From contig JACAEX010000020.1 in the NCBI GenBank assembly GCA_013388635.1, positions 69,826 to 133,825 of the forward strand: a stretch of 64,000 nt of DNA. Reading direction: 5' to 3'. Numbering within the stretch: the first letter of the stretch is position 1; each line of letters opens with the position of its first letter. Of the stretch, positions 32,110-37,101 are shown piece by piece. Source of the stretch: Syntrophaceae bacterium. Its GTDB lineage: Bacteria; Desulfobacterota; BSN033; UBA1163. The notes under the pieces were generated by a model, which was given only the letters and a program-made list of their open reading frames with translations, had not been told where the DNA came from and searched no databases. Made by a program: the position numbers and the translations under genes.

Positions 32110-32799
32110 CTAATCCGATATCTTAAATCCTCGAACCACCTCCGAGGGGAATCCCAGCTGCGAAACAAATTCCCGTTCAATCTCTTTGAACCCAATCTTT
32201 TCAAGGAATGGCTGCACGAAGACGCCTCTGCATCCTGCGAGAAGGGGTGGTTTTAGCTTATAAATCTCCTCGTAGATCTGATTCAGCCACTTCTCACCTT
32301 TCGTCATGTTAACCAGCACGATCCTTCCGCCACGCTTCAACACCCTTTTGAATTCCTCCAGGATCGGCACGAAATCTTCAACGGGTAAAATATCAAACAT
32401 ATATTGATTCATCAAAACATCGAAGGTCCCGTCTTCGAAGGGCAGGTGACGGCAATCACAAAGATAGAGCGTGTAGTTCTCTTTCCCCGTCCTTTGAATC
32501 CTTTTCTTAGCCCTTCTCAACATCTTCATGGAGATATCAATTCCGTCCACCCACCCGCACGAATTCCTCTTTAAGATCTCGACGAAATTGAGCCCTGTGC
32601 CAAGAGCGACTTCGAGGACCCTCTCGCCCTCATGAATGGAAGCCAGATTGAGAGCCCGTTGACGGGCTTTCCACTCCATCAGGATTCCAAAGAGATCGTA
32701 GATTGAAGCGATCCGATCATACTTTCGAATGATCTCGTCATGGGTCAACCTCGCTTCTAAGATATGTGAGTTCATCAGATCGATCTCCTTTTCATCCAT
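32110..32799 (-). CDS. Class I SAM-dependent methyltransferase
   Basis: 229 residues. Motif I is VLEVALGTGLNFVEIL, followed by DGIDISMKMLRRAKKR and FEDGTFDVLMNQYMFDILP, similar to UbiE/MenG-type small-molecule methyltransferases. The acidic loop (LYLCDCRHLPFEDGTFD) completes the Rossmann fold. It is the last gene after the MoxR/GXGXG/VWA module, 58 bp behind VWA, so it may be part of it. The substrate is unknown. Confidence 0.85.
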   Translation of the reverse strand: MDEKEIDLMNSHILEARLTHDEIIRKYDRIASIYDLFGILMEWKARQRALNLASIHEGERVLEVALGTGLNFVEILKRNSCGWVDGIDISMKMLRRAKKRIQRTGKENYTLYLCDCRHLPFEDGTFDVLMNQYMFDILPVEDFVPILEEFKRVLKRGGRIVLVNMTKGEKWLNQIYEEIYKLKPPLLAGCRGVFVQPFLEKIGFKEIEREFVSQLGFPSEVVRGFKISD

Positions 32800-32857: not shown

Positions 32858-34480
32858 TTATGTGGGGTTGAAGTACTCCCGTATTTTCCCCAGAACAATG
32901 TGGGGAATGTCTTCTTTGCGTTTGACCGTAAAGATATTGATATTTCTCTTCTTCTCAACCGCTTTCTCAAACCTGCTCGCGTACGGGTTCTCTCCGATGT
33001 GAACCGCTGTGATTCGATTCTCTATCTCTCCAAAAAAGCTGATCAACGTCTCCAGGTTGGTTATCTTCATGTCGGTGATGATAAAAAGGTCGAGGTTCTT
33101 CCTCCCTCTGATCAGCGGGATCAGATCGTCAAGGTCCAGCGCTGTTCCACCTCCAAAGTATCTGCACAGCACCCGGTAGATATCCTCTCGTCTGTTCGTG
33201 TAGTCCAGAATATCCTTTCCACCCATGGGCGCATCACTAAAATTATAGACCGCCACATTGGCATCATTTTGCAGATAGGCATTGGCTGCACAAGCCGCAC
33301 CGAGGACCGCGTAGGAGAGGGATTTTCGGGGGTTGATCATGCTCCCAGAAGAATCGATAGCGATCAAGCAGTCCGGCGTCCCCTCCATCTTCCCCCTCCC
33401 TTTCCCCTCTCTCTTCTTCCAGATTTGGGTGATTCCGGGCATGACTTTACCGAAGCTCGTCCAGATGTCCACATCCTGAAAAGGCGATCCGACTTCCCAC
33501 GGGGAGTGGGAGTGTGGATGAAGAACGCCCTTCTTCTCAAGAGGCAACTTCTTCAAGGGGATGGAGTAGTTCTCCGCCAGCTTCATGTAGAAAAGGACAT
33601 CGCTGTCAATCGGAGTGCTGAGACCGCGGCCCATTCCCCCTTCCATTCCGTAGCCTGCTTCCTTCAGCTCTTCCGAGAAGTCCTCAATCACCTCTTTGAA
33701 TTCTGACAGGGCCATCGTCCTCTTGACATAATCCCTTAACCCTTGATCGATTTCGTCCCGGGAGTAGTGGGTCAGATCGTGTTCTCCTTGAGGATTGGAG
33801 GCCCCTTTGCCCCCCCTGTTCTCTTGCTCCTCCTGTTCTTCATAAAGGAGGGGCTTCAGAGAGCGCGCAAACTTCTGAATGCTCTCCGGCCATCGGGAGC
33901 GATCGAGGTAGGGGATTCGCGCGAGTCTACGAACAATCGCCTCGTTTTTCTTGGCGCTGGCACCGAATGCAGGGATACCCAGATCGATCCCCCAGATCTT
34001 CTGGCAGAGCGAGGCGATCACCTCCTCCACGGGCCCCTTTTTGAGACACCGGTGCAATTCCGGGATCTCTGTAGACCTCTTTTTCACGCAGTGAGTATCT
34101 GCAATAAGATCGATGAAGCAGTCGGCCACCCGTTTGGCCAGGCCCTTGTCCGGGACGACCTTCTTAGCCTCGGCATAGAGCATGAGATGGGTATGAAAGT
34201 CCCATGGGCAGAACGTATAATGAGTGATCCCGTGATCGAGGAGCGCTTCGATGACCTGCCTGTCCGACATCCGCTCCCTCATTTTGTGGACAAAAGCAGA
34301 GTTGATCCTCATCTGCTTCTGTTTCATCTCGAGCCCGACCCCTTCGCTCCGCTCCTCGCCATCCTGGTTGGGCTCAGGCAGCTCTCCTACCGTTGGCATC
34401 GGAAGCTCCGGGTAGAAGTGTTTTCTCTTCAGTCGGGGCCAGATCTCTTCAATGATCGCTTGTAAGCTTTGTTCTTCCAT
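32858..34480 (-). CDS. VWA-domain protein partnered with a MoxR ATPase
   Basis: 540 residues. The C-terminal third is a von Willebrand A domain with MIDAS motif DSSGS at 376-380 and a second metal ligand in LFIITDMK. The N-terminal half is helical; around 84-130 it has HYTFCPWDFHTHLM and RVADCFIDLIADTH, which faintly resembles the metallopeptidase-like N-terminus of DUF2201/VWA proteins, without a clear HExxH. A low-complexity EEQEEQENRGGKG linker separates the parts. MoxR-VWA pairs act as chaperone-like machines that insert metals or assemble complexes. Here a GXGXG protein sits between the two. Confidence 0.82.
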   Translation of the reverse strand: MEEQSLQAIIEEIWPRLKRKHFYPELPMPTVGELPEPNQDGEERSEGVGLEMKQKQMRINSAFVHKMRERMSDRQVIEALLDHGITHYTFCPWDFHTHLMLYAEAKKVVPDKGLAKRVADCFIDLIADTHCVKKRSTEIPELHRCLKKGPVEEVIASLCQKIWGIDLGIPAFGASAKKNEAIVRRLARIPYLDRSRWPESIQKFARSLKPLLYEEQEEQENRGGKGASNPQGEHDLTHYSRDEIDQGLRDYVKRTMALSEFKEVIEDFSEELKEAGYGMEGGMGRGLSTPIDSDVLFYMKLAENYSIPLKKLPLEKKGVLHPHSHSPWEVGSPFQDVDIWTSFGKVMPGITQIWKKREGKGRGKMEGTPDCLIAIDSSGSMINPRKSLSYAVLGAACAANAYLQNDANVAVYNFSDAPMGGKDILDYTNRREDIYRVLCRYFGGGTALDLDDLIPLIRGRKNLDLFIITDMKITNLETLISFFGEIENRITAVHIGENPYASRFEKAVEKKRNINIFTVKRKEDIPHIVLGKIREYFNPT

Positions 34481-34536
34481 CTTCCTTAATACGCCCCTGT
34501 TCCCCTTTCATTAGGCGGATGAAGGCGGGTTAGGGG

Positions 34537-35301
34537 TTAATAATAGAGATTGGGGATCCTGGCCTTCCCCGGATAGACCAGCTTATCCCTTTCAAAGACT
34601 TTGCCTTCAACGATATTTCCCAAACTTCTTATCCTCCCTCCCACCCGGATCTCCCCACCCATCATCCATTCGCCCGTGTGGAGGCCGATGTTCTTCTTGA
34701 CCCAAATCACTCCACCCCTCATACCTGCTCCGGTCCAGTTCTTTGCGTTGCCTTCGACGACCAGCTCTCCTCCCTCGAGACCGATGCCGGTGAAGTCTCC
34801 CGTATCTCCCTCAATCGCCAACCGTTTTCCGCTTGGAAGTCGAAAGCCGATCAGGTTGATCTCTGTTTTCAGCTCGGAAAGCTTCAGGACGATCTCTTCC
34901 TCCTTTGCATAATTGCACAAGGCAGAGATGTAGATCCCCGCTGGCCCAGGAATCAGGTATGGAACCCTCTGTGTGTTTTCGAGGGCGAAGCAAAAATCTT
35001 CAATGTCCTCTGCTGAATAATCGATCTCCTTGATGTACTTCTCGGCCACTTCATAAGCCTTGATGATGGTGTTATACTGTACCATCCAAACCAGTTCCTT
35101 CGCCTCCTCCTCTAAAAGCTTCTCGTACCCCTTCCGGATCCGGTCCATCACCTCCTCGGTGGACTGAACAATCCTGTCCAGGGGTAGATCACGCTTCTCG
35201 CCGGTGAAGGTCTTAAATTCCTCGAAGGGATTTCTTATTTTAGGGTTGAGCCGTTCGGCCGCGGGCTCTGCTTTTCTCCTCTCTGACGTCGAGTTCCTCA
35301 T
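34537..35301 (-). CDS. GXGXG beta-helix protein (glutamate-synthase/FwdC-like C-terminal domain)
   Basis: 254 residues. The first 120 are helical and unlike anything I recognise. From about 165 to 240 a repeat of the form G-x-G(D/N)-x-(T)G-x-G-(x)GG occurs (GDTGDFTGIGLEGGELVVEG, then GNAKNWTGAGMRGGVIWV and GLHTGEWMMGGEIRVGG). This is the right-handed beta-helix found at the C-terminus of glutamate synthase and in formylmethanofuran dehydrogenase subunit C. No glutamate synthase or Fwd genes are nearby. Position between MoxR and VWA genes suggests it is a scaffold or client of that ATPase. Confidence 0.75.
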   Translation of the reverse strand: MRNSTSERRKAEPAAERLNPKIRNPFEEFKTFTGEKRDLPLDRIVQSTEEVMDRIRKGYEKLLEEEAKELVWMVQYNTIIKAYEVAEKYIKEIDYSAEDIEDFCFALENTQRVPYLIPGPAGIYISALCNYAKEEEIVLKLSELKTEINLIGFRLPSGKRLAIEGDTGDFTGIGLEGGELVVEGNAKNWTGAGMRGGVIWVKKNIGLHTGEWMMGGEIRVGGRIRSLGNIVEGKVFERDKLVYPGKARIPNLYY

Positions 35302-35342
35302 TTTAAGATCGCTCCGGTAAAGGAAAGAGTTGGGCCGAACCT

Positions 35343-36719
35343 TCAGATCCGCCGGGAATGGACGTCTTTCTTAATCTCCACATAGAGCGGGTGGTCACCT
35401 TCCAGAGGTTCCAACGATTCGCCCTGAAAGATCTTCGACCCAACAGCCAAAGCATCTTTCAGGTGTTCACTCTGTTCTCGATACCTCTGGGCCACCGCCC
35501 TCACCGCTTCCTTTGAAAGGAAGATGGGGAAGGGATCATCCCTTTTCGCCCTCTCCTTCTGCGAAAGGATCTCTTCTCTCCATTGGATACGATGAGACAG
35601 GGTATAAGGAAGAACGGACTGGACATGTTCGATATCAATTTCCGAATCCTCTAACAGCCAGGCCAGGCCTTGGGCGTACTGTTTGATAGAGACCGGCAGG
35701 CGATTCGAAGCGCAATTCTTAATATCGTGGCAGAGGTAGCCTGTATAGTGGCATCCCTCCTCGCACCGTTCCACAACCCGTTTCTGGCCGTAGCGCTCAC
35801 AGAAAGAGCATTCCGCAAGGAGCATTCGCGTAAAGGCGCTCGCATCCAGATCCATGTCCAAGCTTGCCATCTCGGCCCGGATCCGCCCCCGTTCTGCTCT
35901 TTGAAGTGGCTTCACGCCCAAGGTCTCTTGAACATACGCCCCAAATGCATTGCAGACCTCCTCCATCTTTGAAATCTTCTTCAGATAGGGGATCTTCGAT
36001 TTGAGGATACGGTGGAGATCTCGTTCATACTTGGGGTGCCTCAGGATCCGGTCCTTACCCCGCCCCTTTCCGATCAGAAAGGATAGGTTGGCTCCCGGGT
36101 ACCGCGACTCCACCATCAGGTCAAACCGATCCATGAGAGGAGCGATAATCGTACTGGTTCCCCCGTCCTGATAGTTGGAGGTGGCGAAGAGACAATATTC
36201 CTCGTTGATGATCATCTCATTGAGGTATTCCCAATTTCCGCGGTCCACTCCATCGAGGATCATGCTCTGCTTGGTCTCCGGAAGGCGGTTGATCTCATCC
36301 ACAATCTTCACCGGGATCTGGGAAAAATTGGTCCAGACCACGTCCTCTTCCCCTCGGTTCAATTTCCCCAGGTCCGGCCTGCCGATGATCTTCTCCTCGG
36401 TTTGCTCTGGATGGCCCGATACTTCACTCCCCCAGATAACCCCTAACGGAAATTGGTAGACCAACGAGCAGACAAATTCCGCGGAGGTGGTCTTTCCTAA
36501 TCCCGGCTCTCCAATGATCAACTCCTTCCCTTCTTGAAGCCCGGTTAAGAGGCTGAAGAGGATCGCTGAGTTGAATCGCTCCCCTTTCACTTCCAAATCC
36601 GGGCGGTTGAAGTAGAGGTGATCGCTGATAAACTGGTAAATCTCCATCACCTGTTTCTGATATCCATCTCTTGCCACGCCTTCTACCCTTTCTATTGAGC
36701 TAACAGAAAATGATAACAT
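35343..36719 (-). CDS. MoxR-type AAA+ ATPase with cysteine-rich lid insertion
   Basis: 458 residues. Walker A GEPGLGKTT (70-78), Walker B VKIVDEIN with D141/E142, sensor-1 ATSNY (179-183) and an Arg finger candidate in LMDRFD. After the core, in the lid region, cysteines and histidines cluster: C304, C307, C319, C323, H324, C330, H331, C336, suggesting one or two metal sites. Such a cluster is not usual in MoxR proteins. Co-directional with rpoZ (150 bp gap) and followed by the GXGXG and VWA genes with gaps of about 40-60 bp. Likely works with the VWA protein to remodel a target. Confidence 0.88.
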   Translation of the reverse strand: MLSFSVSSIERVEGVARDGYQKQVMEIYQFISDHLYFNRPDLEVKGERFNSAILFSLLTGLQEGKELIIGEPGLGKTTSAEFVCSLVYQFPLGVIWGSEVSGHPEQTEEKIIGRPDLGKLNRGEEDVVWTNFSQIPVKIVDEINRLPETKQSMILDGVDRGNWEYLNEMIINEEYCLFATSNYQDGGTSTIIAPLMDRFDLMVESRYPGANLSFLIGKGRGKDRILRHPKYERDLHRILKSKIPYLKKISKMEEVCNAFGAYVQETLGVKPLQRAERGRIRAEMASLDMDLDASAFTRMLLAECSFCERYGQKRVVERCEEGCHYTGYLCHDIKNCASNRLPVSIKQYAQGLAWLLEDSEIDIEHVQSVLPYTLSHRIQWREEILSQKERAKRDDPFPIFLSKEAVRAVAQRYREQSEHLKDALAVGSKIFQGESLEPLEGDHPLYVEIKKDVHSRRI

Positions 36720-36870
36720 GGCCCCTCTCTCAAGACAAGGTTTTCATCCCTTACTCCTCCCTGGAAACTTCCCACCATCGGCCGGGGATGTTCCACCCGA
36801 TGGCAGCCTTTCTCCACGCTTCAGTGACGCATCACCCTTCCACTCCGGAGTCCGGCGCTCGCCCCCCTTT

Positions 36871-37101
36871 TCAGGATGGATTCTGAGAAGGTTCGACCTT
36901 CTTCTCTCTTTCCTTGGGATCGATGAACTTCACCTTTCCCGCAGCCACCTCCCGAAGGGCCGTTACAATGAATCGATTATCTGTCTCGACCAATGGTTTC
37001 GCCCCTTTCATCAGCATCTTCGCCCTTCTCGCAGCTAACATGACCAGTTCGAACCGGCTCTCCACCTTTCTCAGACAGTCTTCAACCGTTATCCTTGCCA
37101 T
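36871..37101 (-). CDS. rpoZ: RNA polymerase omega subunit
   Basis: 76 residues beginning [27 protein letters not shown], the conserved omega fold that clamps beta-prime. The C-terminal tail is charged. It overlaps the end of gmk by 13 bp, the usual gmk-rpoZ order. Confidence 0.94.

Follow-up and report, generated by a model that had tools for sequence, protein, structure and literature searches.

A conserved trio of MoxR ATPase, tagged GXGXG beta-helix protein, and zincin-like VWA protein in uncultured bacteria, and its archaeal relatives

We analyzed a 64,000-nucleotide stretch of the genome of a Syntrophaceae bacterium (assembly GCA_013388635.1, contig JACAEX010000020.1, positions 69,826 to 133,825; hereafter the window), in which three neighboring genes encode a MoxR-type AAA+ ATPase (P0001), a GXGXG beta-helix protein (P0002), and a protein with a zincin-like region and a VWA domain (P0003). 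A sequence-only reading of this DNA had described these genes as a compact, co-directional unit. The open reading frames (ORFs) read from the sequence agree, since all three are intact and adjacent and run MoxR-GXGXG-VWA along the minus strand (Table 1). The profile evidence for each protein alone is modest and becomes consistent once alignments and structure are added. No second copy of MoxR or GXGXG was found above the search thresholds in the window's genome (VWA was not searched separately).

The trio is conserved well beyond this genome. Among 297 sampled genomes of the window's phylum, the window's own included, 33 had GXGXG orthologues at an E value of 1e-43 or better, and all 29 orthologues fetched with their flanks had MoxR and VWA genes on either side with the order unchanged. 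When GTDB was scanned with the MoxR alignment, 141 relatives came up, of which the best 80 were kept. The adjacent, co-directional trio was present at 63 of the 70 loci with enough contig, and this arrangement is therefore far beyond chance. The sequence-only reading had made its proposal depend, beforehand, on finding the neighborhood elsewhere, and it recurs in several phyla. The carriers, all metagenome-assembled, are Desulfobacterota-type, Latescibacterota, Tectomicrobia, and a few labeled otherwise. One record labeled Gemmatimonadetes (RS821) shares its assigned phylum with a Latescibacteria genome, and 18/64 genomes of that phylum have a strong orthologue. In five genomes MoxR lies apart from the pair, and GXGXG and VWA are still together in all five. 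Between any two of the trio proteins, tree distances are correlated (r of 0.88 to 0.90). The search for further conserved neighbors, which the same reading had proposed, returned no conserved fourth gene beside the trio outside close kin. An AOR-type oxidoreductase lies within 10 kb of the trio in four loci, which we judged to be a loose linkage. A phage or plasmid origin of the trio was rejected, as tblastn gave no relatives in phages or plasmids and none were found in viral contigs.

The P0001 matches to Pfam AAA_5 (22.7 bits) and AAA (22.3 bits) are both just over the cut-off, and a PDB sequence search returned no close relative. Walker A and B are kept across the bacterial MoxR proteins and most archaeal members. 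This AAA core with both Walker motifs, together with genomic pairing with a VWA protein at the bacterial loci and in the archaeal pairs, is as expected for the MoxR class. A Cys/His motif, likely a metal site, is retained in the archaeal loci L109, L111, L141, L147, and L148 and lost from other archaeal members. As a separate observation, the MoxR of one genome (G303) looks split between L106 and L158, with residues ~21 to 291 at one place and residues ~280 to 453 at another chromosomal site, next to the GXGXG-VWA pair, by rearrangement or misassembly.

P0002 scored 25.3 bits against the Pfam GXGXG profile, below the cut-off of 32.5, and 76.8 bits (E = 1.5e-21) against the FwdC profile TIGR03122, below the family cut-off of 130.65. 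Its AlphaFold2 (AF2) model, with a predicted local distance difference test (pLDDT) score of 82, has a low-confidence N-terminal tail, four helices, and then a beta-helix. In a structure search, the beta-helix matched FwdC (5t61_C; Z of 12.9 over 116 residues at 2.7 Å) and glutamate synthase (7mfm_G; Z of about 11.9). For the helical domain, the search with the whole model returned no convincing PDB match. The earlier description of a beta-helix like those ending glutamate synthase or found in FwdC, behind an unfamiliar helical N terminus, thus holds. The Pfam scan of P0002 gave GXGXG and one chance-level second match, with no VMAP or iSTAND component, and PADLOC gave one weak match (PDC-S31, E = 2.8e-4), to an entry without a description. 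Elsewhere in the window's genome (G000, contig C90, L210:324-7910), a single 2528-aa ORF fuses an FAD-linked oxidase, Fe-S domains, glutamate synthase, a glutamine amidotransferase-like region, and a GXGXG domain.

Near its N terminus, P0002 carries a short tag, NPFxxF, followed by a flexible spacer. The tag is present in 66/66 bacterial GXGXG proteins, including those only ~29 to 34% identical to the window protein, and is duplicated in six Latescibacterota-type members. As a control, we looked for NPFxxF within the first 60 residues of the other ORFs of the same loci and found it in 2 of 821. On sequence grounds, such conservation is typical of a short docking motif. Of 89 pattern matches in the window's genome, roughly 40 were examined, and none of these was another N-terminal NPFxxF protein.

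The VWA domain of P0003 is almost invisible to Pfam (VWA_2, E = 0.24), and a PDB sequence search with the VWA protein gave chance matches only. The AF2 model (pLDDT of 80) matched Rpn10 (Z of 12.7 over 163 residues at 3.2 Å) and NorD (9qh8_G; Z of 11.4 over 180 residues at 3.9 Å), the likeness to NorD covering residues 254 to 535. The metal ion-dependent adhesion site (MIDAS) is full, with D376, S378, S380, T446, and D470, so that P0003 has both the DxSxS...T...D motif and the fold of a VWA co-chaperone.

Beyond what the sequence-only reading had noticed, the N-terminal region of P0003 appears to be zincin-like (HxxxH...D), with the presumed metal ligands kept and the catalytic Glu lost. Of the residues that define a zincin metallopeptidase, the two His and the proposed third ligand are present in sequence and the catalytic Glu is absent. 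The motif reads H[G/A]xxH, with Gly or Ala in place of Glu, in 68/68 bacterial VWA proteins, whereas HExxH is intact in all 20 archaeal and Muiribacteriota relatives. The matches listed by the structure search of P0003 hold no zincin, as the VWA domain fills the list, and the archaeal relative at L143 has a weak Peptidase_M48 match (E = 0.071). In an unrooted VWA tree, the bacterial proteins form one side of a branch (Shimodaira-Hasegawa-like approximate likelihood ratio test, 97) within the archaeal spread, with L142 and L145 as their archaeal neighbors. A single change at the Glu position would therefore suffice.

Table 1. Positions of the trio genes and their features in the window
Feature	Residues (aa)	Position	Strand	Basis or conservation
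MoxR-type AAA+ ATPase P0001	458 aa	35343..36719	-	AAA_5/AAA matches above cut-off; conserved Walker A/B
Walker A GEPGLGKTT	70-78	36486..36512	-	Almost all columns invariant in 17 orthologues
Walker B KIVDE	138-142	36294..36308	-	D141/E142 invariant
MoxR Cys/His site C307-x11-C319-x3-C323-H324-x6-C330		35730..35801	-	Invariant in 17 bacterial orthologues
GXGXG beta-helix protein P0002	254 aa	34537..35301	-	FwdC-like profile match; AF2 model
NPFEEF N-terminal tag, proposed docking motif	24-29	35215..35232	-	NPFxxF in all bacterial members
Helical domain of P0002	40-131	34909..35184	-	AF2 helices 40-66, 76-90, 97-108, 118-131
GXGXG beta-helix	136-243	34573..34896	-	AF2 strands; FwdC and GltS (glutamate synthase) folds
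Zincin-like and VWA protein P0003	540 aa	32858..34480	-	AF2 model; fold matches of VWA part
HGITH, degenerate HExxH	83-87	34220..34234	-	H83/H87 invariant
D124, proposed third metal ligand, FxDxxx[DN]	124	34109..34111	-	Asp in every member inspected; Glu in L142, L145
VWA domain	366-533	32882..33385	-	Structural matches Rpn10, NorD, Rea1
MIDAS DSSGS	376-380	33341..33355	-	Completed by T446 and D470; conserved

Housekeeping genes neighbor the trio in the window, and rpoZ-, gmk-, and yicC-like genes lie upstream of it. A UbiE-like methyltransferase gene (32110-32799) is directly downstream, where it is otherwise seen in L064 and a subset of close relatives only. In 14 close relatives, a gene for a 477-aa protein (cluster 3) stands just upstream of MoxR; the window has no such gene between rpoZ and MoxR (36720-36900).

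Relatives of the VWA protein were also found in archaea, including 17/194 genomes of the phylum that holds the Woesearchaeota genome of L111. At the archaeal loci, MoxR and an HExxH-VWA protein are encoded beside arrays of proteins, some built like the window GXGXG protein and others with different bodies. The array proteins of one locus have a common N-terminal tag specific to that locus, such as GIEKRE in L153, MPIDDALGNIE in L154, and GKPEEKK in L140. A strong N-terminal match was seen in 52/407 pairs from the same archaeal locus, compared to 31/7096 pairs from different loci. In L154, L140, and L111, some pairs have the tag in common but bodies that do not align. The tagged proteins vary in length, and in both genomes tested the tag GI(K/E)(K/E)RE was confined to the locus of MoxR. 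We also observed three tandem beta-helix paralogues at L149:3914-6989, with a near-identical N terminus and repeat tracts of very different length. At L111:13249-16060, three proteins without a recognized domain have the N-terminal tag region of the adjoining Woesearchaeota GXGXG gene.

Complete diversity-generating retroelements, each with a reverse transcriptase (RT) and a template repeat, lie beside the archaeal MoxR-VWA genes at L143:5342-7090, L144:5652-7412, and L145:5743-6911. L143 and L144 are from one genome and L145 is from another. The RT genes were identified by RVT_1 profile matches, that of L145 by its 57% identity to the L143 RT. At these loci, the C termini of the tagged neighbors bear variable repeats that match the template repeat next to the RT. 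Within the 70- to 80-bp repeat cores, 53/55 changes fall at template adenines, which is the mark of a diversity-generating retroelement. RT, template repeat, and adenine-specific variable repeat occurred together at L143 to L145 only; the same scan of the other archaeal loci showed none, and none was seen in the window.

Several parts of this picture have been described separately, namely MoxR-vWA ternary conflict systems (PMC7159879), phage metallopeptidase-vWA proteins (PMC7824862), and MoxR-linked retroelements (PMC10907252). NorQ-NorD (PMC13036017, PMC9976466) resembles the trio in pairing a MoxR ATPase with a large VWA protein, to which P0003 aligns over its C-terminal part. In NorQD, the MoxR pore receives a finger of the VWA protein, a linker is remodeled with the use of ATP, and iron is inserted into nitric oxide reductase (NOR) (PMC13036017). 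Unlike NorD, P0003 bears a zincin-like region at its N terminus, and the trio has GXGXG as its third gene and no NOR genes conserved beside it. Group 2.2 jumbo phages pair MoxR with a vWA protein bearing an N-terminal metallopeptidase domain (PMC7824862), an architecture like that of P0003 and its partner. However, the bacterial trio lacks the catalytic Glu and has no phage relative by tblastn, and no GXGXG partner is described for the phage pair (PMC7824862). Like the trio, MoxR-vWA-VMAP and other ternary conflict systems (PMC7159879) keep the genes of MoxR, vWA, and a dedicated third protein in a strict sequence, but their third component is VMAP, iSTAND, FtsH, or a beta-propeller rather than a GXGXG beta-helix, and the trio has no effector domains. 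In multicellular bacteria, retroelements have been proposed to diversify the sensors of MoxR-linked conflict systems (PMC10907252). L143 to L145 likewise have a diversity-generating retroelement beside MoxR, but differ in having a zincin-VWA protein and N-terminally tagged targets, and the bacterial trio is without a retroelement in the window. Among the open-access PMC papers searched, none joins MoxR and VWA with a GXGXG third component, in keeping with the earlier suggestion of an undescribed system, and we found no description there of the archaeal tagged protein sets. New here are the disarmed zincin-like region, the NPFxxF tag, and the archaeal tagged arrays with retroelements.

Our favored reading, held at slightly less than even confidence, is that the trio is a ternary MoxR-VWA machine with a tag-docked beta-helix recognition subunit, and that it evolved from a chaperone-protease able to exchange its recognition proteins. 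The VWA part is similar to NorD, a protein with a finger that reaches into the NorQ pore. By family analogy, a MoxR hexamer is expected to act on the VWA protein as NorQ does on NorD, which would involve ATP-driven remodeling. P0003 probably binds but no longer cuts, as its presumed metal ligands are kept and its catalytic Glu is gone. P0002 would be the recognition subunit, an adaptor or sensor, docking on the VWA protein through its flexible NPFxxF tag and bringing the target, with the helical domain and beta-helix facing that target. The archaeal relatives may represent the parent design, in which one MoxR and one HExxH-VWA protein would serve exchangeable tagged recognition proteins, sometimes hypermutated, that pick out targets for a chaperone whose peptidase is active. 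In bacteria, the trio would then be a fixed, one-adaptor, noncutting descendant. The broader history is more tentative. In it, an archaeal programmable AAA+ chaperone-protease, loaded by tag with recognition proteins that are sometimes hypermutated, was possibly disarmed once in bacteria, leaving a pseudo-protease machine with a single NPFxxF adaptor.

By analogy, the archaeal relatives favor an adaptor or recognition role for the beta-helix protein over that of a client, which the machine would fold, assemble, or activate while gripping its N-terminal tag. A client would fit GXGXG being the sole gene conserved beside the MoxR-VWA pair and the tag standing before a flexible spacer, and the MoxR-VWA pairs described so far often have their clients encoded alongside. 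We prefer the adaptor because of the retroelements in three archaeal loci, as hypermutated, length-variable tagged proteins suit recognition better than a fixed assembly task, and we regard a client as unlikely. The same retroelement-diversified partners, which recall bacterial MoxR-linked retroelements (PMC10907252), and the strict order of MoxR, vWA, and a third protein, as in VMAP systems (PMC7159879), could instead indicate an active biological conflict (defense) system of the ternary MoxR-vWA kind. This is improbable for the bacterial trio, given that profile searches gave no VMAP, iSTAND, effector, or convincing PADLOC match, and the window shows housekeeping neighbors, no retroelement, and a single genome copy. 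If the pseudo-zincin site held a metal delivered by MoxR-VWA action, the machine could insert or handle metal, as NorQD does (PMC13036017); the retained ligands and the Cys/His site in MoxR agree with this, but no metalloenzyme is linked to the trio, and we consider it improbable as well. That P0002 is an ordinary FwdC or glutamate synthase subunit with its companion genes at another site has next to no likelihood. Its fold and profile similarity are what such a subunit would show, since the GXGXG beta-helix is common to FwdC/FhcC and the glutamate synthase end. Yet the FwdC score is below the cut-off, FwdA was above the cut-off in none of 22 trio genomes, the beta-helix is preceded by its own tag and helical domain with no Fwd or GltS partner, and the gene is tied to VWA. 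We therefore rejected this identity, which the sequence-only reading had named as an outcome that would refute its proposal, and P0002 is a stand-alone protein.

Several points weigh against the ternary machine with a tag-docked adaptor. No recognizable tagged partner was found in the archaeal pairs L141 and L152 or in the Muiribacteriota pair, and none of the hypermutated archaeal proteins is a beta-helix. Extending the adaptor role to the bacterial GXGXG protein relies on analogy of locus and tag, and genomics alone does not separate an adaptor from a client. The correlated trio trees are also expected from shared descent alone. That Glu was lost rather than gained is suggested by the spread of the outgroup and by what HExxH usually does, the VWA tree being unrooted. 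The structure predictions are of single chains, and interaction, ATPase activity, metal binding, and cleavage are all putative.

MoxR-VWA machines are widespread, but a substrate or adaptor is known for few of them. In the trio, the genes of machine and partner are neighbors, and the short invariant motif of the partner is open to direct mutation. Stand-alone FwdC-like matches in these uncultured bacteria should not be taken as one-carbon (C1) metabolism. Within one family there are disarmed zincin domains in bacteria and apparently armed ones in archaea, where tagged partners are retroelement targets, and the family thus offers a natural test of programmable recognition-and-processing machines.

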